A DNA stretch of 49,212 bases from an uncultured Prochlorococcus sp. (lineage in GTDB: Bacteria; Cyanobacteriota; Cyanobacteriia; PCC-6307; Cyanobiaceae), in contig CACOIM010000008.1 in the NCBI GenBank assembly GCA_902627325.1, forward strand, positions 1 to 49,212, given 5' to 3'. The notes under the pieces were generated by a model. That model made no database searches. It was given only the letters and a program-made list of their open reading frames with translations, and was not told the DNA's origin. This document shows positions 12,474-26,676 of the stretch, piece by piece. Numbering within the stretch: position 1 is the stretch's first letter; the number at the start of each line of letters is the position of its first letter. Both the position numbers and the translations under genes were made by a program.

Positions 12474-13112
12474 ATGAAAGGGAAATTTATTGTTCTAGAG
12501 GGAATTGATGGATGTGGGAAAACGACTCAAATAAAAGAACTTTCTGAATGGTTACCAAAAAGTGGTTTAATCAATAAAAATGCAACATTAATAAAAACAA
12601 GAGAACCAGGAGGTAGCATTCTAGGAAGAGAAATCAGAGATATGATTTTAAATAATGATAAAGCAAATCCACCATCGAACTTAACGGAATTACTTCTATA
12701 TTATGCTGATAGAGCCGAGCATATTTCTAAAATAATATTACCTGCATTACAAAATGGAAATTGGATAATAAGTGATAGATTTTCAGGATCAACATTAGCT
12801 TATCAAGGCTATGGTAGAGACATAGATGTAGATATTATTAAAAAATTAGAAAATATTGTTTGTCCTAATATAAAACCAGACATAACATTTCTTTTACAAA
12901 TCTCACCGGAAGAAAGTATAAAAAGAAGACAGAATAAAGTCGCAGATAGAATTGAATCCGAAGGATTAGAATTTCTCAAGAAAGTTAACCATGGATTTCA
13001 ATTAATTGCTTTAGAAAATAATTGGAAAATAATCAAAGCCTCCAAAGATTTAAAGTCGATATCACAACAAATTCAAACGTCATTAATCAATAAATTCTCT
13101 TTAAACAAATAA
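12474..13112 (+). CDS. tmk: Thymidylate kinase
   Basis: Phosphorylates dTMP to dTDP for DNA synthesis. The P-loop [11 protein letters not shown] is at residues 9-19, followed by REPGGSILG for dTMP binding, the DRF motif ([13 protein letters not shown]) and a lid DRIESEG. The length of 212 residues is normal. The start ATG abuts the stop of the copper ATPase and the gene precedes holB by 11 bases, the tmk-holB order seen in many bacteria. Confidence 0.97.
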
Positions 13113-13123
13113 TAATTAATTTT

Positions 13124-14068
13124 ATGAATATTAAATTTAAAAATGAAATGAATTTAAAATTTGACAAAATAATACAAGAAAATGTCATCTCGAATGCTTA
13201 TATTTTTTATGGTCCCGCAAATACAGGTAAAAAAGAGACAGCCTTAAGATTTTTTTCAGAAATAATAAGAGCAAATAATTCTGATTTAGATGTATACACA
13301 AAAATTAAAGAAAATAATTATCCTGACTATTTAAAAATTGAACCAACATTCATACACAAAGGAAATCTTATTAATCAATCAGAAATAAATAAAGAAAATA
13401 ATCAAAATACTAAACCTTTGATCAGAATTGAGCAGATCCGCAATATCAAAGTTTTCTTAAGCAAAAGATCGATCCAATCTACAAAAAAATTCATACTAAT
13501 AGACAATGCTCATCTATTGAATGAGTCTTCATCAAATTGCTTATTAAAAACTCTAGAAGAGCCAACAAATGGAGTTTTTATTTTATTAACATCAAGATTG
13601 AATTTATTACTAGATACAGTTATATCAAGATGTCAAACAATAAGATTCAAGCCATATTCAGATAAAGATTTAAGGCAATTTATCAAAAATTCAAAATATA
13701 ACAACCTGGATGTTTTATCAGATAGTGATGTTTTGGAAAACTTAATCTTTATATCTAATGGATCTCCAGGAAAGCTATTAGATAATTTAGACATTTGGAA
13801 TCAAATACCTAAAACAATTAAAAATGAAATTGAATTTCCTCTCAAAAATTATGAGATTATTTTGAATTTAGCTAAAAATATTGCAAATCTTCTGGATTTA
13901 AATCAACAAGAATTTCTCTTAAACTATATACAAAGGAATTGGTGGAAAAGGACAAAAAATAAGAAAATAGCTGAAATACTGGAAACAATCAAAAATAATA
14001 TTTATTCAAACGTACAACCAAGAGTGTCTTGGGAAGTAGGCTTATTAAAAATAAAATTTGAAGAATAG
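13124..14068 (+). CDS. holB: DNA polymerase III delta' subunit
   Basis: Clamp-loader subunit of the replicase. The degenerate P-loop is GPANTGKKE near residue 30, and the family hallmark SSNCLLKTLEEP lies near residue 142 with SRCQTIRF after it. At 314 residues it is close to family length. It lies 11 bases behind tmk. No CxxC zinc module is visible between the P-loop and the sensor region. That fits the delta' rather than the tau/gamma type. Convergent with rpaA (4 bases between stops). Confidence 0.92.
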   Translation: MNIKFKNEMNLKFDKIIQENVISNAYIFYGPANTGKKETALRFFSEIIRANNSDLDVYTKIKENNYPDYLKIEPTFIHKGNLINQSEINKENNQNTKPLIRIEQIRNIKVFLSKRSIQSTKKFILIDNAHLLNESSSNCLLKTLEEPTNGVFILLTSRLNLLLDTVISRCQTIRFKPYSDKDLRQFIKNSKYNNLDVLSDSDVLENLIFISNGSPGKLLDNLDIWNQIPKTIKNEIEFPLKNYEIILNLAKNIANLLDLNQQEFLLNYIQRNWWKRTKNKKIAEILETIKNNIYSNVQPRVSWEVGLLKIKFEE

Positions 14069-14072
14069 AAAA

Positions 14073-14846
14073 TTATGTATTAATTAAATTAGATTCTCTC
14101 GAGTTAATAAATTCATCTCTTGCTACATCTACTTGGTTTCCTGTAGGCAGTTCAAGACAATAACCTGCTCCATAGACTGTTTTTATAAATTGTGGTTTCC
14201 GTGGATCTGGTTCTAATTTTGTTCTTAAGTGCCTAACATGAACCCTGATAGTTTCAATGTCATCGTCCGGTTCATAACCCCAAACCTCTTTTAAAATTAG
14301 CGAGGGGGAGACAGTTTGACCGTGTCTTTGAAGTAGGCAATGTAATAATTCGAATTCCAGATGCGTTAATCTTACTGGAGAATTAAACCAGATCACCTCA
14401 AATCTTTCTGGAACTAATGTTAGTGGACCATAATTTAGTATCTCTTGTTGATTTGTAGAATTAAGTGCAACCCTATTAGTTCTTCTCAAAAGGGCTTTAA
14501 TACGAACATGAAGCTCCTCCAAATCAAAAGGTTTTGTAATGTAATCATCAGCTCCTGAATTAAAACCAGTTACTTTATCCTTTAAACCACCTAAGGCTGT
14601 GATCATTAAAATAGGAATACCTGATGTTCTATCATCTCTTCTCAATCGCTGACATAATGTGAGCCCGTCTACATTTGGGAGCATTAAATCTAACAGTATA
14701 AGATCTGGAGAATATTGCAAAGCTAAGGCTTGACCTTTAATTCCATCATCAGTTTTTAAAACATCAAAACCAGAGTGCTCAAGATGACCCGCAACTAAAT
14801 CGCGCATATCTCGATCGTCCTCTATTAATAGAATAGTAGTTTTCAT
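14073..14846 (-). CDS. rpaA: OmpR-family response regulator RpaA
   Basis: Receiver domain with D10/D11 and phospho-acceptor D53 (LLDLMLP), then a winged-helix domain. The block [20 protein letters not shown] and the end [13 protein letters not shown] match RpaA, the master output regulator of the cyanobacterial clock and light signalling, controlled by SasA and CikA. The length of 257 residues is normal. Its transcription starts from the 365-base gap on its right. With rpaB it gives both central light/clock regulators within 6 kb. Confidence 0.94.
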
Positions 14847-15211
14847 ATTGATTACAAAAATAAAATTTTTAATATTCTCTCAATAATTTTTATTTATTGC
14901 AGACAATGCTTTGAAAGCACCTTGGATTAAGAAAACTGATAAATTCAATCGTACCAATAGTTTTTGGATAATTATACCAATCAAAGCCTAAAGAAATTTT
15001 ATAAATTCTTCCATTTTTTTTAACCTTTGCTTAATAATACACAATAAATTCAGTTATTTCTTGCACTATTTAGTTCCCAATTAACCCAAATTATGGAGAA
15101 CTAACTAAATTTTTAATTAAATTAAAGGATATATTATTTATTTGAGAAAATTAAAATTAATCCTCTTAAATAAAATAAGGTTTATCTTATATTGATATAA
15201 ATTTAGTAAAC
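14847..15211. other. Intergenic region, promoters of rpaA and the 116-residue gene
   Basis: 365 bases, strongly AT-rich, between two divergent genes. It must hold both promoters. A TTATATTGATATAA segment just before the rightward ATG contains a -10-like element. I see no open frame, RNA structure or repeat that I can support. Confidence 0.6.
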
Positions 15212-15570: not shown

Positions 15571-15670
15571 AAATAAAAAAAAGACCCTTTTTTAAGGGCC
15601 TTATATAATGGTTTTCAACAAGTGTTTCCTTGTTTCCACTGCGAAAACCATTTACTCCTACACACTCACA
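15571..15670 (-). ncRNA. Yfr2-family (Cyano-1) small RNA, copy 1
   Basis: Read on the minus strand this is a short RNA of about 95-100 nt. It carries the family hallmark of two GGAAACA elements in tandem (GGAAACAAGGAAACA, bases 15637-15623) inside a loop closed by a perfect 10-bp stem (15643-15652 with 15607-15616). It ends in a rho-independent hairpin (AAGGCCCTT/AAGGGTCTT) followed by eight Ts. A near-identical layout occurs at 21.8 kb. Yfr2-type RNAs are abundant small RNAs of marine cyanobacteria; the 5' end is estimated from the shared GTAGGAG segment downstream of a -10-like TTATGTTAT. Confidence 0.9.
15573..15602 (-). terminator. Rho-independent terminator of Yfr2-family RNA copy 1
   Basis: On the minus strand a 9-bp GC-centred stem (one G-U pair) with a 4-base A loop is followed by a run of Ts. 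The + strand also forms the hairpin but with a shorter U tract, so it may serve the convergent gene that ends at 15562. Confidence 0.85.
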
Positions 15671-20174: not shown

Positions 20175-21029
20175 CTAAAAAAGACTTCCTTGAATTCCTT
20201 CGCTATCTCCCTTGAATTTATTACTAATCACTTTGGCATATTGTTCAGAATAAGCACAGTTTTTGCATGATAAATTCTGTGATGGGAGTTGACAACTATT
20301 CATTAAGTCGACCATTTCGTCAACTTTATTTTCAATCCAATCAATATTCCAATTATAGGGCACTAAATATTCATCAAAATTCATTCTTTTCTTGAATTCT
20401 TGTTGATCTCTCTTTGCATTACAAACTAAGAAGTAGGAAGTTTTATGGACATCAAAACCCATACCAATAAGAAGATAAGCATAAAAATCCATTTGTATTT
20501 TATATCCCTGATGATAAGGATCTTCGAGATAGTCTTGTTTATCTAATCTCCCAAGTTTTGCTTGTGATTTGTAATCGACAACAATTAATTGCTTTGAGAT
20601 ATTATGCTGCCAAATATCATCTACTCCTCCAGTTAAAATGATATTTGTATTCTTGTAACGAAGCATCAATCCTTTATGAAGAGAATCCCTCCAATTATCA
20701 ATTTCTGGATGATCAAAAGGTACAAGATTACTTAATTGGTTTTCGATAAACAATCGATGAGGAATTTGTCTTTCTCGGCAATAATCAAATTCCTTTTTTA
20801 ATAGTAAATCTGTTGTTTCATTCAAAGTCCATCCAGGGGTGCCTGGAGGATCTAACCCTTTTACTCGATCTAAATAAAAACATCTCTTGCAGGTTAAAAA
20901 ATTAAAAAATCTTCCTCTACTAATTTTAAAATCTTCTTTTTGATTCGGTGAATAAAATGAGCAGGCTCTAGATCTTAAGCCAGTAGCTCTAATGGGTTCC
21001 TTTTTACTATTTCTTTTTAGGTCAATCAT
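20175..21029 (-). CDS. PD-(D/E)XK nuclease family protein, Cas4/AddB-like with Cys cluster
   Basis: Likely a metal-dependent DNA nuclease of the RecB-nuclease superfamily. Active-site residues: D137/D138 in GGVDDIW, D152-x-K154 in VVDYKSQ, then Q179 and Y183 in QMDFYAYLL. The paired cysteines C47/C50 (CKRC) and C255/C258 (CKNC) flank the nuclease core, the layout of Fe-S-stabilised members such as Cas4 and AddB. The length of 284 residues is complete. No cas genes, CRISPR array or helicase lie nearby. Its promoter is in the gap to the right. Exact function unknown. Confidence 0.82.
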   Translation of the reverse strand: MIDLKRNSKKEPIRATGLRSRACSFYSPNQKEDFKISRGRFFNFLTCKRCFYLDRVKGLDPPGTPGWTLNETTDLLLKKEFDYCRERQIPHRLFIENQLSNLVPFDHPEIDNWRDSLHKGLMLRYKNTNIILTGGVDDIWQHNISKQLIVVDYKSQAKLGRLDKQDYLEDPYHQGYKIQMDFYAYLLIGMGFDVHKTSYFLVCNAKRDQQEFKKRMNFDEYLVPYNWNIDWIENKVDEMVDLMNSCQLPSQNLSCKNCAYSEQYAKVISNKFKGDSEGIQGSLF

Positions 21030-21407
21030 GACATCTCTAATGCCTCAATGATATTCATCTGTTATAGAGTATTTAGCTCAATAAATACGTACAAACATAT
21101 TTTTTGTAATTAATATCTCAGTAAATTGAAAATATTAAAACAAATTATAAAAATGAAATTCGTACTAATTTATTTATTAATTTCTGATCACTTAAAAAAA
21201 CTTCAAATGATTGAATTGTTTAAATGTAGAGTGTTCTTTTAATTTTTTTTATTTCTTATAAATTCCATTTCGTTTAATTTTCGATTGGGAATTGCGAAAA
21301 GAGTAGTTAGTTTTATAATTGCTCCAAGATCTATTTATATATTGTCACTCGATTCGCATTGGATTTGTAGAGTATTTTTGTTCCAGTAATAATGCTTTGT
21401 CTTTTTG
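21030..21407. other. Gene-poor stretch
   Basis: About 380 AT-rich bases upstream of the nuclease gene. No supported gene or structure. Confidence 0.55.
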
Positions 21408-21526
21408 AGCACTATATTTCTCTAATTGACAGGATTATAAATAATACAGTATTCACAGGGACTTCAAAGTACCACTCATTAAAGAAGTTCAAGACTCTAA
21501 AGTGGCATACAAATGTCCCCTAATAT
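21408..21526 (+). repeat. Inverted-orientation copy B of a ~115-bp element (small-RNA-like, decayed)
   Basis: Read on the + strand this matches the minus strand of 24058-24178 almost end to end. Shared landmarks in order are CACTATAT.TCTCTA, AATACAG, TCACAGG.AC.TCAAAG, ACCACTCATT, AAAGAAGTTCAAGACTC and a GC hairpin. In this copy the final hairpin (GTGGCAT/ATGTCCC) has mismatches and no U run, so termination is probably lost. No conserved start codon is shared by the two copies, which favours RNA or regulatory DNA over protein. Confidence 0.75.
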
Positions 21527-21787: not shown

Positions 21788-21885
21788 TAAAAAAAAGGCC
21801 CTTATCTCTAGAGGTCTTTTGCTGGTTCTACTGAATCAAGTGTTTCCTTGTTTCCAGTGATTAAGTAAAACCTCTCCTACACACA
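21788..21885 (-). ncRNA. Yfr2-family (Cyano-1) small RNA, copy 2
   Basis: Minus-strand RNA with the same GGAAACAAGGAAACA core (21855-21841) as copy 1. It is enclosed by stems GGTTTTACT/AGTAGAACC (one G-U pair) and AATCA/TGATT, then a terminator hairpin and a run of Ts (21800-21788). The upstream TATTGTGTGTAGGAG resembles the 5' region of copy 1 (GTGTGTAGGAG), marking the likely promoter and start. The stem sequence differs from copy 1 but pairing is kept, which supports selection on structure. Confidence 0.9.
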
Positions 21886-21976
21886 ATACAAAACTAAAGG
21901 AATTATTTATTTAGGCAATATTAGGAGTTAGGTCATTAAATTGGCACATATGCAAAATACCTAAAAAAATTAAGTC

Positions 21977-22012
21977 ATTAAAAAACACCCTAATTCATGT
22001 GAATCGAGGCGT
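21977..22012 (-). terminator. Hairpin terminator on the minus strand
   Basis: On the minus strand AAACGCC pairs with GGTGTTT (one G-U pair), with an inner ATTCA/TGAAT, followed by six Ts. It could end a minus-strand transcript coming from 22.0-22.4 kb. Confidence 0.6.
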
Positions 22013-22226
22013 TTAGTGATCAGAAATTAGTGTGTAAGAAGTTTTCTGATGCATCTAATCTAATCCTAAAAGTAATGTTTAAAAGAACTCTTAATCTGAT
22101 TATCAAATAGATCTCGATCTCCTTCTGTCTTCACTAATACAAAAGACCCCTATAGGAGCATTTTTTAATGTCTTTAATATACTTTAGAACCAAAAGTAAA
22201 AAATTATATCGATCGATTATGTATTA

Positions 22227-23623: not shown

Positions 23624-23642
23624 GTAGCTGTTAGAGCATTAA

Positions 23643-23711
23643 TAAAGACCTCAAGTACCATAACGTGAAGTCTTTAGATCTTGAAATTGGACTCCCAGGG
23701 CGATTAAAACA
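23643..23711 (-). mobile_element. Degraded duplicate of tRNA-Asn 3' end plus terminator (att-like remnant)
   Basis: In the same orientation as tRNA-Asn at 26560-26631. Both places read AAAGACCTCAAGT, a hairpin loop, TGAAGTCT, TTGAAATT, then the tRNA 3' end: CTCCCAGGGCG here against CTCCCCGGGCG in the intact tRNA. A 6-base gap (GAAATG) and point changes separate them. Duplication of a tRNA 3' end in direct orientation is what integration at a tRNA gene leaves behind. An AlpA-like gene relic lies 150 bases inside. Confidence 0.75.
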
Positions 23712-23856
23712 AATGCATAATGAACTGTTATGACTACTCTTGAAAACCTATTTCATTATATTTTGTGCATTACACTAACTATTTTTTACAAGATTCTTTG
23801 GAATTACCAAAACATTCATTAATTCATTTCCCTGTTAAGATTTAAATCACCTACGC

Positions 23857-24092
23857 ATGAATACAGAAAATAGTCCCTTTTCTCGATCCAGGAAGTTTCT
23901 GAGTTTCTTGGGATTTCTATATCAACAATTAATCGCTTGGTCAAAGAAGGAGACTTTCCAAAAAAAATAAAAATAACACCCAGAAGAATAGTTTTTATGA
24001 AAAATGATATTGAGGATTGGATAAAAAGTAAAAAAAAACAACTATATTCCAAAAAAATAAAGGGGCATGTGTTTGCCCCTTTCGAGTCTTGA
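23857..24092 (+). pseudogene. AlpA-like (excisionase/regulator) helix-turn-helix gene, frameshifted
   Basis: From 23874 one frame encodes an AlpA-type winged HTH: IQEVSEFLGISISTINRLV, then GDFPKKIKITPRRIVFM and DIEDWIKSK, ending at the TGA of 24090-24092. No start codon occurs in that frame after the TAG at 23871. The natural start, ATG 23857 (MNTENS), is in another frame; restoring one base near 23874 joins them. So a single-base loss has broken the gene. AlpA/Xis-like proteins direct excision or regulation of integrated elements. Confidence 0.75.
24052..24083 (-). terminator. Rho-independent terminator, minus strand
   Basis: Perfect 9-bp stem AAAGGGGCA/TGCCCCTTT with a 6-base loop, followed on the minus strand by ATTTTTTT. 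It ends the small-RNA-like element copy A and perhaps the transcript of the 24242-24667 gene. Confidence 0.9.
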
Positions 24093-24178
24093 ACTTCTTT
24101 TCCTAAATGAGTGGTGCTTTGAGGTTCCTGTGACTCCTGTATTCTTTCTACTCCTATAAAATAGAGATATATAGTGTA
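24052..24178 (-). ncRNA. Candidate small RNA, copy A of the ~115-bp inverted-repeat element
   Basis: On the minus strand: a -10-like CACTATATATCTCTA, about 85 bases of conserved sequence (AATACAG, TCACAGGAACCTCAAAG, AAAGAAGTTCAAGACTC), then a strong terminator. A homologous copy lies in inverted orientation at 21408-21526. A promoter-like start plus terminator and no shared start codon suggest a short RNA, about 90-100 nt. It overlaps the end of the AlpA-like relic on the other strand. Unnamed. Confidence 0.6.
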
Positions 24179-24241
24179 GAGATCCACAAAGTATTATTAC
24201 TTGAGCAAAAACCACCAAACCTATTCATGATGTTCATTTTT

Positions 24242-24667
24242 TCAAGGATTAAAGTCTCTACATTTTGCTCTTTCGTTTTCATAATCTTTAATAGCAGTAT
24301 CCCATTCTAATAAATCTGCTTCTTTTCCAGAAATATATAATTCCATTTGTTTCGAATACTTCGCTGATTCAATCCGACTATTGAATGAAGCGTTGCAGAA
24401 TATTATACTTCCAAATTTTTCATAGTCCGTATAATCCCTATTCGCAGCAAATTCAGCATTTGCCCTTTTCTTATCTAATGCTTTATATTCCAAATCCTCA
24501 ATACTAGGTTTTGGACGGAGTAAGAATGCTTTATATTCCAAATCCTCAATACTAGGTTTTGAAAGAAGTAAGGATGGTTTCTTTTGTGAATTTAGATATG
24601 CGATAAGGAAAACAGAAATAAGAACAACAGCAAATACTCTAATTAACCAAGTTATAGTTTTGTCCAT
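24242..24667 (-). CDS. Membrane-anchored hypothetical protein with internal tandem repeat, 141 residues
   Basis: One N-terminal membrane helix (residues 5-25), then a charged region with two copies of KPSIEDLEYKA, 16 residues apart, and a helical C-terminal part with two Cys. The repeat is a recent 48-bp tandem duplication: 37 bases are identical in both copies (24477-24513 and 24525-24561). Family unknown. It lies inside the segment bounded by the tRNA-Asn remnant and tRNA-Asn. Confidence 0.68.
   Translation of the reverse strand: MDKTITWLIRVFAVVLISVFLIAYLNSQKKPSLLLSKPSIEDLEYKAFLLRPKPSIEDLEYKALDKKRANAEFAANRDYTDYEKFGSIIFCNASFNSRIESAKYSKQMELYISGKEADLLEWDTAIKDYENERAKCRDFNP
24477..24561 (-). 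repeat. 48-bp tandem duplication within a coding region
   Basis: Two perfect 37-base copies, period 48 bases (16 codons), frame preserved. The identity at the DNA level points to a recent event. Confidence 0.9.
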
Positions 24668-24768
24668 TATTCTTTTACTTATTCAGTACAACCATCAAAG
24701 GAAAACTTTTAAAATACTAATCAAAATAAAACCTAAAAGAAATAATTTCTTCTTACAAATTAAATAAT

Positions 24769-24978
24769 TTATTTTGCCCATAACTTGAACTTCTTAGAAA
24801 CCTCAAAAAGTCGATTCTCATCTAAACGAAAATACTCCGTCTGATAAATTCTGAACTCTTTATAGTCTCTATGAAGATCTCTTTCAAGTTCATCCCTTTG
24901 CCTCGGTTCTGGATCTGGATACATTTCTTCAGGTTTATCAGGGGGTTTAGCAGATCGTATGATTCCTCTAAAGATCAA
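24769..24978 (-). CDS. Small hypothetical protein, 69 residues
   Basis: Highly charged, with PPDKPEEMYPDPEPRQRDEL and an aromatic-rich end (EYFRLDENRLFEVSKKFKLW). No family recognised. Its ATG overlaps the end of the upstream 64-residue gene by 11 bases, a sign of translational coupling. Within the tRNA-Asn-bounded segment. Confidence 0.55.
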   Translation of the reverse strand: MIFRGIIRSAKPPDKPEEMYPDPEPRQRDELERDLHRDYKEFRIYQTEYFRLDENRLFEVSKKFKLWAK

Positions 24979-25162
24979 CCTCCATTGGTATTTCTAAAAT
25001 AGGATTCTTTATACCATATTTATTGGCGGTTCCCTTCATAACTTTATAGTCATGTTTGCATTCTATATAAAATCTCTTTTCTTCTTCTGTAGCGTCTTCA
25101 TTTAAAGGTTTGCCTGTAGTCGCAAGCATCAATAATTCTTGGGATCTTTTATTAGTAATCAT
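24968..25162 (-). CDS. Small hypothetical protein, 64 residues
   Basis: Starts MITNKRSQELLMLATTGKPL and ends NPILEIPMEVDL; soluble, mixed charge. Unrecognised. Overlaps the following 69-residue frame by 11 bases, so the two may be translated together. Within the tRNA-Asn-bounded segment. Confidence 0.55.
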   Translation of the reverse strand: MITNKRSQELLMLATTGKPLNEDATEEEKRFYIECKHDYKVMKGTANKYGIKNPILEIPMEVDL

Positions 25163-25213
25163 GATTTGAATTTAAGTTGATTTTCTATGAAATAATTTCT
25201 AAAGCAGAATCAA

Positions 25214-25429
25214 CTAATTTTTTCTATATTTACTTAATTCTAAAGTGGAGACTGTGAGTAATTCATAATCAACATTGTCTATTACTAATCTTTTAGTTGT
25301 ATTTGTCAGTATCAGATTGCAAATCTCTTTGGAAGGCATATTATCTAAAACAATTTTAAATTCAGTTTTATAGTCTTTGAATCCAATACGCTCATCAAGA
25401 TTTTTAATTTTGGGATTCATTACCAACAT
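25214..25429 (-). CDS. Small hypothetical protein, 71 residues
   Basis: Starts MLVMNPKIKNLDERIGF; the ATG four codons in (MNPKI) is an alternative start. Middle KEICNLILTNTTKRLVI, end ELSKYRKN. No known family. It begins 27 bases after the stop of the broken HSDR_N-like gene, on the same strand. Confidence 0.5.
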   Translation of the reverse strand: MLVMNPKIKNLDERIGFKDYKTEFKIVLDNMPSKEICNLILTNTTKRLVIDNVDYELLTVSTLELSKYRKN

Positions 25430-25456
25430 TGTTTTTATAATTTGAAATGCTTTTAA

Positions 25457-26221
25457 TTAATCAGCATTTGTATAGATTCCAGTTGATGATTTTTCTCCCT
25501 CAAGAACCTTTATCTTTTTTATTGAGTTTTGTAATGAGACAGAATTTATAAGATTCGATAATTTTTCAGAGATTTTTTCAGTAATTCTCTTTCCACTCAT
25601 CTTTTGAAAAACAAGTTTTATTAATCCATCTCCAGCTGGATAAAGTGTCTGAGTTAATGCATTATTAAAATCATCTAAAAAGTATTTTTCCTCGGATATT
25701 TTAAGAATATCTTGAGTATTAAAAACCTGTAAATGAAAATTTGCAATATCCTCAAGATCTGCTCTTGTAAAATCTCTTAAATCAAAAACCATAAATGCAT
25801 AATTACTTAGTTTTTTGGAGTCATTCCACATTACTGAATAGAATTCATAGACTATACCATTAGTCAAAATTCCTAATTTTGACTCTTTATGATTATGAAA
25901 ATAATCTGCTAACTGCTTTCAGTTTGTATCAGTTAAATTTGAAGTTGATCTTTTACATTCGATCAACATTATTGGTGTTTTTCGATTTAAAGTTATTACA
26001 ATATCAATTTTTTTACACTACCCTTCCCAAACTTCAGACTGAATTCATGAGAATAATGTTCCATTTTGTTATGTCCAAGAAGATTAAAAAATGGTTCAAT
26101 TAAATAATTACTGGTCTGAGATTCGTTCTCGCTAAGTTTAATTGTTTTGATATATTCCCACTTTGAAAATGATTTCTCTAATAAGTTTCCAATTTGTTTA
26201 ATTGTTGCCCAGATTATTCAT
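25457..26221 (-). pseudogene. HSDR_N-type (type I restriction R-subunit N-terminal-like) nuclease gene, broken
   Basis: On the minus strand two frames together encode one protein. The first part gives SNYLIEPFFNLLGHNKMEHY. After a run of seven T on the + strand (26008-26014) the frame shifts to KIDIVITLN and MLIECKRSTSNL, with Asp and Glu-x-Lys of a PD-(D/E)XK core. An in-frame TGA (25919-25921) follows, then KQLADYFHNHKESKLGILTNGIVYEFYS, the typical QLxxY...LTNG end of HSDR_N domains, continuing to the stop at 25457. So one frameshift and one nonsense mutation, and probably a further shift near the start (ATG 26221). The last 411 bases remain open (from TTG 25867) but are unlikely to be made alone. 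Confidence 0.8.
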
Positions 26222-26316
26222 TTATCAAATTAATATAATCACAATGCAATTCTACTCAGGTATTAATACCCTATGAATTTCAAATTAATGGGAGGATAAT
26301 AAAAGAGTAGAGATCT

Positions 26317-26322
26317 AGGAGG
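26317..26322 (+). promoter_or_regulatory. AGGAGG ribosome binding site
   Basis: Perfect Shine-Dalgarno, 4 bases before ATG 26327; unusual strength in this AT-rich window. The same AGGAGGTCTTAT stands before the decayed copy at 18554. Confidence 0.85.
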
Positions 26323-26326
26323 TCTT

Positions 26327-26485
26327 ATGAAACTCACAACTCCGTTCACTGCTCTTAGAAATGCAACTTCAGATATGTGGAGAATGCATGATTTTAATTA
26401 CAAATTGCCAAAAGAAGCAAAGCAAGATTACTGGGACAAAGAATGCATTGATCATCCAACAAGTGCTCATTGCAAATTTTATTAA
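26327..26485 (+). CDS. Small YWDKEC-motif protein, 52 residues
   Basis: Begins MKLTTPFTALRNATSDMWRM, continues HDFNYKLPKEAKQDYWDKEC and ends DHPTSAHCKFY. Soluble, two Cys, many aromatics. No named family known to me. Support: a perfect AGGAGG site, a GATAAT -10-like element at about 26294, and a second, decayed copy at 18554-18719 keeping YWDKEC and the Cys spacing. The existence of two copies shows it was a real gene. It sits just inside the tRNA-Asn gene. Confidence 0.8.
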   Translation: MKLTTPFTALRNATSDMWRMHDFNYKLPKEAKQDYWDKECIDHPTSAHCKFY

Positions 26486-26508
26486 AAAAATTACAAATTC
26501 AAGTCAAT

Positions 26509-26541
26509 AAAAAAGACCTCAAGTGCAATGACCTGAAGTCT
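26509..26541 (-). terminator. Terminator of tRNA-Asn, minus strand
   Basis: On the minus strand GACTTCAGGT pairs with ACTTGAGGTC around a short loop, followed by six Ts, 20 bases beyond the tRNA 3' end. The same hairpin is duplicated in degraded form at 23644-23675. Confidence 0.8.
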
Positions 26542-26559
26542 CTTGAAATTGAAATGGAA

Positions 26560-26631
26560 CTCCCCGGGCGGGATTCGAACCTGCGACCAATCGGTTAACA
26601 GCCGATCGCTCTACCGCTGAGCTACCGAGGA
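26560..26631 (-). tRNA. tRNA-Asn(GUU)
   Basis: 72 nt on the minus strand with acceptor TCCTCGG/CCGGGGA, D arm with AGCTCAGCGGTAGAGC, anticodon loop CTGTTAACC (GTT, Asn), and T arm GGTTCGAATCC. The 3' CCA is not encoded (TTC follows the discriminator G). It marks the border between accessory and core DNA. Confidence 0.97.
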
Positions 26632-26676
26632 ATAATAAGAATTTAGCTCTTATACCCACCAAATGACAAGGGGGGG

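Follow-up and report, generated by a model that had tools for sequence, protein, structure and literature searches.

The tRNA-Asn gene of an uncultured Prochlorococcus sp. raises the question of how a 2.9-kb segment that encodes no integrase came to lie between the 3′ end of this tRNA and a degraded copy of that end. The segment is part of the window analysed here, a stretch of 49,212 nucleotides (contig CACOIM010000008.1, positions 1 to 49,212) from genome G000, which is 59.9% complete. An earlier note, made from the sequence alone, had taken it for the decaying remnant of a tRNA-Asn-integrated element whose integrase is gone. Cores at both borders, together with filled and empty sites in related genomes, bear out the integration. 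We consider it likely that the segment belongs to a family of small integrative cassettes in the 3′ end of tRNA-Asn, which have a 12-nt core, an arm, usually a pair of 11-bp repeats and often an AlpA gene, that members without an integrase (Int) are mobilized in trans, and that the window copy itself is probably immobile.

Borders of the window element

The single tRNA gene of the window, and the target of the element, is a complete tRNA-Asn(gtt) at 26559–26632 on the minus strand (ARAGORN; 66.7 bits with the Rfam tRNA model). Within this locus, 23637–23702 directly repeats 26505–26570 with 80% identity over 66 nt (E = 1.8e-12), and the common part consists of the terminator and the final 12 nt of the tRNA (26559–26570). 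The earlier note had recognized this repeat in the same orientation, and the limits given there (23643–23711) were close, but identity ends at 23702 and only 12 nt of the tRNA are included. These 12 nt are the tRNA-proximal core, ACTCCCCGGGCG (26559–26570, minus strand); the distal, displaced core, ACTCCCAGGGCG (23691–23702, minus strand), has one mismatch. Similarity to elements of G078, G112 and G089 starts at 23691, and similarity to a sister unit in G098 stops at 26571. The interval 23691–26570 (2880 bp with both cores counted) is an integrated element with a copy of the 12-nt tRNA-Asn core at each border. A chance origin of the direct repeat was considered and rejected, given its identity and E value and shuffled sequences without cores at 0 or 1 mismatch.

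Related elements in G078 and G112 start at exactly 23691 and the left flanks differ in all three genomes, so that the repeat is not conserved in place regardless of what lies inside it. The window and G078 are 85.6% identical over 450 nt inside the border, 38.6% over 300 nt outside it and 88.9% in the chromosome past the tRNA; the corresponding values for G112 are 80.1%, 49.7% and 67.3%. Since the element DNA of G112 is nearer to that of the window than its host DNA is, this comparison gives a sign of horizontal transfer. On the tRNA side, 26294–26571 is 92.8% identical to G098, where another element comes after the core. The sister unit of G098 is 1704 bp long and runs from an AlpA gene to a YWDKEC microprotein gene, terminator and core, with the further element between it and the tRNA.

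The terminator now behind tRNA-Asn is borne by the element and is an intrinsic hairpin at 26515–26540 (minus strand; −11.4 kcal/mol, 10-bp stem) with a T-run at 26509–26514. The most plausible reading of the distal repeat is that it was the terminator of an earlier occupant of the tRNA, present before the window element. Its degraded sequence at 23637–23690 (minus strand, part of the 80% repeat) would be this displaced terminator, and it fails the test for a hairpin plus T-run.

The arm holds three TGA triplets 10 bp apart (23721, 23731 and 23741; 23721–23743, plus strand), as read from the sequence, and a single 11-bp repeat, TTACACTAACT, at 23770–23780 (plus strand). This repeat is present as a tandem pair in L041, L039 and L059, and G078, like the window, keeps one copy. 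Similar phasing of TGA triplets, which precede the 11-bp repeat, was seen by eye in other arms. The window element has the core, the arm, the terminator and one 11-bp repeat, whereas the pattern proposed for the family includes a pair. An AlpA-like gene for an excisionase or regulator is located at 23857–24092 (plus strand; PF05930, E = 1.1e-11; phrog_66, 5.4e-11; relatives). As had been noted before, it is frameshifted, near 23880: its frame is shifted against its ATG and reads MNTENSPFSRSR... where L041 has MNTENSPFFTIQEVSEF.... Because of this frameshift, the single 11-bp repeat instead of two, the mismatched distal core and the nuclease pseudogene described below, the window copy is probably inert now, which agrees with the decay proposed earlier.

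tRNA-Asn islands across the genus

The tRNA-side chromosome was matched somewhere in 199 of 200 genomes of the genus, part of them away from the tRNA-Asn locus. We compared 79 loci, the window and 78 relatives, with two 20-base stretches left out; since the relatives were picked non-randomly, by match rank and contig flank, counts over these loci do not give frequencies in the population. Between the end of the left marker (window 13100–14900, which holds a response-regulator gene) and tRNA-Asn lie 827 bp or more. The islands contain 62 displaced cores in 45 of the 79 loci (38 exact, 14 with one mismatch and 10 with two), and cores with at most one mismatch are present in 40 loci. All 62 share one orientation and none is reversed inside the islands. 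In the shuffled control, searched on both strands, cores appeared at 0.00 per 10 kb with 0 or 1 mismatch and at 0.025 with two.

Filled and empty sites were then set against each other. The empty set comprised 11 loci whose islands measure 987–1086 bp and lack a displaced core, the terminator lying directly against the tRNA, and the filled set 14 loci in which a similar terminator is displaced, each compared with the best of the 11. Left flanks, through the core, were 73.8–92.4% identical and right flanks 93.0–99.2%, and 182–9222 bp were inserted at the core. The best pair (L083 and L104) showed 92.4% and 99.2% identity with an insert of 3805 bp. For the left flank of the window itself, no empty counterpart turned up; the evidence from empty sites applies at the level of the family. 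At this level, strains with an empty site and strains with an Int-bearing element at tRNA-Asn both exist, which were the two observations that the earlier note had named as support for an integrated element.

The elements seem to bring their own terminators, because the terminator adjoining tRNA-Asn differs between close relatives. A strict test for a hairpin plus T-run was passed by 61 of 79 current terminators, 31 of 52 displaced ones and 2 of 79 shuffles, many of the failures being hairpin-like by eye. The T-run was kept in 57 of 62 displaced and 78 of 79 current terminators, a slight difference. Core mismatches did not rise clearly with distance from the tRNA (means of 0.53, 0.50 and 1.0 for ranks 1, 2 and 3; n = 45, 14 and 3), and the age order of the units in an array therefore rests on logic and not on decay. 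The idea that a terminator duplication is kept in place by all relatives was rejected, since the tRNA-adjacent sequence varies even among the four nearest relatives.

The arms have a recurrent architecture. Among 66 arms, 62 from the 79 loci and four from integrase loci, 44 contain two 11-bp repeats that agree at 9 or more of their 11 positions and lie head to tail 60–78 nt past the core, compared with 0.08% in the shuffled control. When spacing was scored with 10-nt windows, a spacing of 11 gave 42 arms and the other spacings from 7 to 15 gave 0–6. A looser tandem test was passed by 39 of the 66 arms and 0.5% of shuffles. The sequence of the 11-bp repeat varies by group. Taken together, the loci show a family of elements with borders at the core, a common architecture, horizontal spread in one comparison and repeated use of one site.

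Integrase and proposed movement in trans

An AlpA gene is present in 24 of the 62 segments, no more than 500 nt inward from the core; 20 of these have no Int, three have a full Int and one has an Int remnant. A profile of ten AlpAs gave matches in 51 of 266 genomes. Of 30 AlpA loci that were taken, which overlap the earlier set of AlpA relatives and the ten profile sequences and in part represent the same elements, 29 have an Asn core with at most two mismatches within 400 nt upstream, and in 26 of the 30 it lies at 92–113 nt. These AlpAs are called Int-less in the sense that none of the 30 stretches, which mostly extend 1.5 kb to each side, contains an Int match; L153, which has no core and was counted as Int-less, is located on the G189 contig 4.3 kb past its Int. 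Nineteen genomes belonging to other genera of the taxonomic family gave weaker AlpA matches (best E, 4.3e-15), and the four AlpA loci examined there had neither an Asn core nor a tRNA.

The integrase is a diverged tyrosine integrase of about 437 amino acids (aa), which was found in 3 of the 79 islands (G021, G035 and G050) after AlpA, 459–518 bp inside the core. It surfaced only through clustering of the open reading frames (ORFs) of the islands; a search of 40 genomes with PF00589 gave none there, and the catalytic part had no Pfam match in the two copies scanned. It matches phrog_1, the PHROG integrase, with E values of 2.9e-22 to 3.2e-29, the integrase domain model PRK09692 matches far under its cut-off, and a profile search of the PDB gave no match up to E = 0.1. 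Inspection by eye gave the conserved R, HxxR and Y. Int matches, 27 in all, occurred in 24 of 266 genomes, and five were close. An Asn core was located near Int in 7 of 20 loci examined, that is, the five closest and 2 of 15 others; 13 had no core, an absence that is weak at L126 and L133, both of which are cut short. Resolvase-like serine recombinases were also seen by eye in three Int-bearing islands (L057, L066 and L112).

Arm sequences connect part of the Int-less elements with the Int-bearing ones. Of the 59 Int-less arms, 20 reach an identity of 60% or more with an arm of the main Int clade, where the shuffled maximum in 126 was 55.8%, and three more reach it only with an arm of a second Int clade, for which there was no shuffle control. 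The window and its nearest kin, which have no match to an Int arm, were kept in this comparison.

From these data we propose that the element enters the 3′ end of tRNA-Asn at the 12-nt core, where a tyrosine recombinase would cut within the core and use the arm repeats. The Int-less members, including that of the window, would be moved in trans by the Int of an Int-bearing relative, and AlpA may serve as the directionality factor. Since the element carries its own terminator, the tRNA gene stays complete, with an older terminator displaced beyond it, and successive insertions at one tRNA would build arrays with the newest unit nearest the tRNA.

It could be argued that every Int-less element, that of the window included, instead arose recently by deletion from an autonomous, Int-bearing one and is a cis-mobilizable element (CIME) formed by decay, stranded in place and unable to move by itself. 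Loss of the integrase does occur in the family: the G022 element is a clear intermediate with a truncated AlpA and only the last 60–75 residues of Int. Two protein families of the window, a 141-aa one and a T5orf172-type one, also have members in the Int-bearing element of G035, and in G189 the arms of a 215-bp element and of the Int-bearing element are 88.4% identical. As a general explanation, however, deletion is unlikely. In the AlpA tree, the five Asn-type Int elements group in a single clade (100/100), and the 30 Int-less AlpAs fall outside it. The latter are, as judged from codon changes, under purifying selection, the median pairwise ratio of nonsynonymous to synonymous substitution rates (dN/dS) being 0.29 and all 431 usable pairs being below 1. 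Furthermore, there are gene-less units of 137–257 bp, namely 13 segments of at most 270 bp in the 79 loci and one in G189, with a longest complete ORF of 7–39 aa. One pair of these (L111 and L075; 256 and 257 bp) shows 86.9% identity, against 35.8% in the left flanks, and another pair (L085 and L096) 77.9%, against 42.5% in the flanks. Since such alike units adjoin unrelated flanks, in-place deletion alone would not be expected to yield these two pairs; L084 and L096 are 61.3% identical, and their flanks are similar and of native type (80.5%). The earlier statement that the integrase is gone is thus not supported as it stood, since its absence is the rule among the AlpA-bearing segments and their AlpAs lie apart. 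Because of this separation, the purifying selection and the gene-less units beside unrelated flanks, loss of the integrase is probably not the main story, and the elements look like long-lived non-autonomous cassettes that would be moved in trans.

We regard it as rather improbable that movement in trans depends on a conserved chromosomal tyrosine recombinase, about 389 aa long, and not on the Int of related elements. PF00589 matched an open frame of 386–399 aa in 35 of 40 genomes (exactly 389 aa in 22; these frames need not be orthologous), and such an enzyme would account for Int-less elements in genomes without an Asn-type Int, but it has no known link to the core or the arm, and the arm similarity ties the Int-less elements to the Int-bearing ones. 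In G015, the one place examined, its gene (L170 1521–2690, minus strand) lies between cobO- and hemH-like genes, as assigned by eye, and its best NCBIfam match is XerA, far under the cut-off. That site-specific recombination had no part in the arrays, and that these arose by homologous exchange between strains and between repeats of the terminator or tRNA, is very hard to believe, since the distal breakpoints fall at the 12-nt core where the flanks are unrelated and the Ints sit at a near-fixed place beside it, even though the well-conserved tRNA-side chromosome could be one crossover arm and some similar segments are inverted or reordered between islands.

Several observations weigh against the proposed cassette family and its movement in trans. 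No excision, circular form or packaged copy was seen, and in viral contigs the Int profile found no relative and two arm patterns no match. Asn-core Ints are rare, given the 7 of 20 loci examined, and G000, about 60% complete, contains neither a PF00589 match nor a match to the tRNA-Asn Int family. The window arm is 45.3% and 49.5% identical to the Int-bearing arms, which is chance level among those sampled, and the integrase of the window's own group was therefore not seen. The 11-bp pair test is failed by 22 of the 66 arms, and the looser tandem test also scores 3.8% of random island stretches. The AlpA tree is built on about 60 positions, is weak inside and its bootstrap is not settled; the dN/dS pairs are non-independent and some AlpA copies are broken. 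In L047, a reversed core with two mismatches occurs outside the island.

Cargo genes and related systems

The earlier note had listed a broken HSDR_N-type nuclease gene and four small unknown genes in the interior of the window element and had suggested that the cargo is of defence origin. The nuclease gene (25217–26217, minus strand) is indeed a pseudogene, with its frame split by an in-frame TGA (25919–25921) and an in-frame TAA (25457–25459). The piece 25999–26217, in another frame, was assigned to it by eye only; if it does belong, the frame also changes near 26000. For the middle piece, the match is to phrog_4225, an endonuclease (2.5e-18), while the HSDR_N label is only suggestive because the HSDR_N_2 score is under the Pfam cut-off (20.7 vs 25 bits). 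Of the four small genes, a 141-aa protein with a hydrophobic N-terminus by eye (24242–24667, minus strand; clustered in three loci, with a homologue in the Int-bearing G035 element, L066) and a 64-aa ORF (24968–25162, minus strand; from the ORF list) had nothing over the cut-off in the Pfam scan. In contrast, 25214–25429 is probably the tail of the nuclease, lying in its frame just past a stop, and 24769–24978 (minus strand) is a C-terminal relic of a MUG113/T5orf172-type gene. The MUG113 match (6.1e-7, over the cut-off; T5orf172 only 0.013) covers the C-terminal part only, and a 202-aa member of this family is present in the Int-bearing G035 element. PADLOC gave no match for four cargo pieces of the window element. 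At the tRNA-side end lies the YWDKEC microprotein gene (26327–26485, plus strand), whose relatives recur near cores; its family has 22 matches in 13 of the 79 islands (some rows overlap), 20 of them on the plus strand and 11 within 450 bp of a core, and another member lies in the window at about 18.66 kb.

Related elements carry restriction enzymes, which makes a defence origin plausible, and the nuclease pseudogene of the window fits this type of cargo. AlpA-only elements encode a type ISP restriction-methylation protein of 1623 aa (L041), an Mrr-helicase (L083), an MrcB_N/NOV_C protein (L067) and a Z1 protein (L098); judged by their starts and lengths, proteins similar to the L041 and L083 ones are encoded in L058 and L100. 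HsdM and HsdS are present in the Int-bearing G035 element, HsdR and HsdS in an AlpA-less one (L106). Among the ten cargo proteins submitted to PADLOC, which were picked as interesting-looking and are no census, that of L096 gave no match and that of L069 a weak one. A PD-(D/E)XK nuclease with weak Cas4 similarity is also encoded at 20175–21029 (minus strand) of the window; counting that of the window, 5 of the 79 islands have a homologue.

In integrons, arrays of recombinase-less gene cassettes are added at one platform, each bringing its own site. Here the platform is a tRNA gene, and neither an attC-type site nor a platform-fixed integrase was seen. In a broader picture, for which we see the case as evenly balanced, tRNA-Asn would be a docking site for self-terminating, mostly Int-less cassettes that rare Int-bearing relatives move in trans. 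Beyond core, arm repeats and portable terminator, such cassettes would have AlpA as an option and carry little cargo, several times a restriction enzyme; defence genes would be shuffled in an integron-like manner within a genus of streamlined genomes, and the units of about 140–260 bp would be the tyrosine-recombinase equivalent of miniature inverted-repeat transposable elements.

tRNA-fragment repeats in marine islands (PMC7771536, PMC10872708, PMC2784084), CIMEs (PMC5704250) and tycheposons are already known. No earlier description of this tRNA-Asn system was found at the level of titles and the opening lines of abstracts, a survey outside which the original tycheposon paper lies. The general type of tRNA-integrated element with a tyrosine recombinase has a distal 3′-end repeat, as does the window element, and encodes an integrase, which the window element does not. 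Tycheposons share with the present elements the host genus Prochlorococcus and islands at tRNA genes. They are defined by a tyrosine recombinase, which the window element lacks and the elements of G021, G035 and G050 possess, and by a size of 4–200 kb, as quoted in PMC10872708; the window element, at 2880 bp, is below this range, many relatives are shorter than 4 kb and some are gene-less. In the additive flexible genomic islands of Actinomarinales (PMC7771536) and Methylophilaceae (330 bp to 42 kb; PMC10872708), cassettes lie at tRNA genes with part of the tRNA as a direct repeat, but the excerpts of these two papers mention no portable terminator, 11-bp arm repeats, AlpA or integrase acting in trans. 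CIMEs, as described in an excerpt of PMC5704250, keep their attachment sites, lack integration genes and accrete in tandem at the end of a target gene. The window element likewise retains attL and attR, that is, both cores, the distal one with a mismatch, and integration and transfer genes are absent from it now; CIMEs are, however, defined there by loss of genes through decay, whereas the present elements have retained and diversified AlpA in the absence of Int, and units free of genes seem to have moved. PICMI satellites are small marine elements in which AlpA is needed for excision and was proposed to be an excisionase-like factor, and their model, in the part of PMC10803314 drawn on here, needs int, alpA and prim; the ORFs of the window element include neither int nor prim, and alpA is the sole gene of that model. 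Several partial copies of tRNA-Met lie in a Prochlorococcus island at the putative attachment site of phage P-SS2 in MIT9313, which concerns another tRNA and is discussed, in the relevant section of PMC2784084, with phage and insertion sequence activity.

In this family, gene gain by an ocean bacterium with a streamlined genome can be studied on a concrete, testable unit whose borders are exact and whose arm follows a recurrent architecture, and there is a candidate for the integrase. Such units suggest a route by which restriction enzymes may enter Prochlorococcus genomes and leave them again, and small Int-less pieces that are easily dismissed as debris may be a moving population. A portable terminator would explain repeated hits on one site without harm to a needed tRNA.

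Other features accompany the islands. The tRNA-Asn island of G089 (L039 4490–7181) encodes a ferredoxin-nitrite reductase, over the cut-off, and a transporter of the formate/nitrite family, under it. The variable island of the window contains Rfam small RNAs, two copies of Cyano-1 and one Yfr10 (15602–15667, 21819–21886 and 21970–22050, all on the minus strand), of which further copies are present in L037 and L038. A repeat of about 150 bp, 79% identical, occurs at 21375–21519 (minus strand) and 24062–24211 (plus strand) of the window and in one or several copies in the islands of some relatives.

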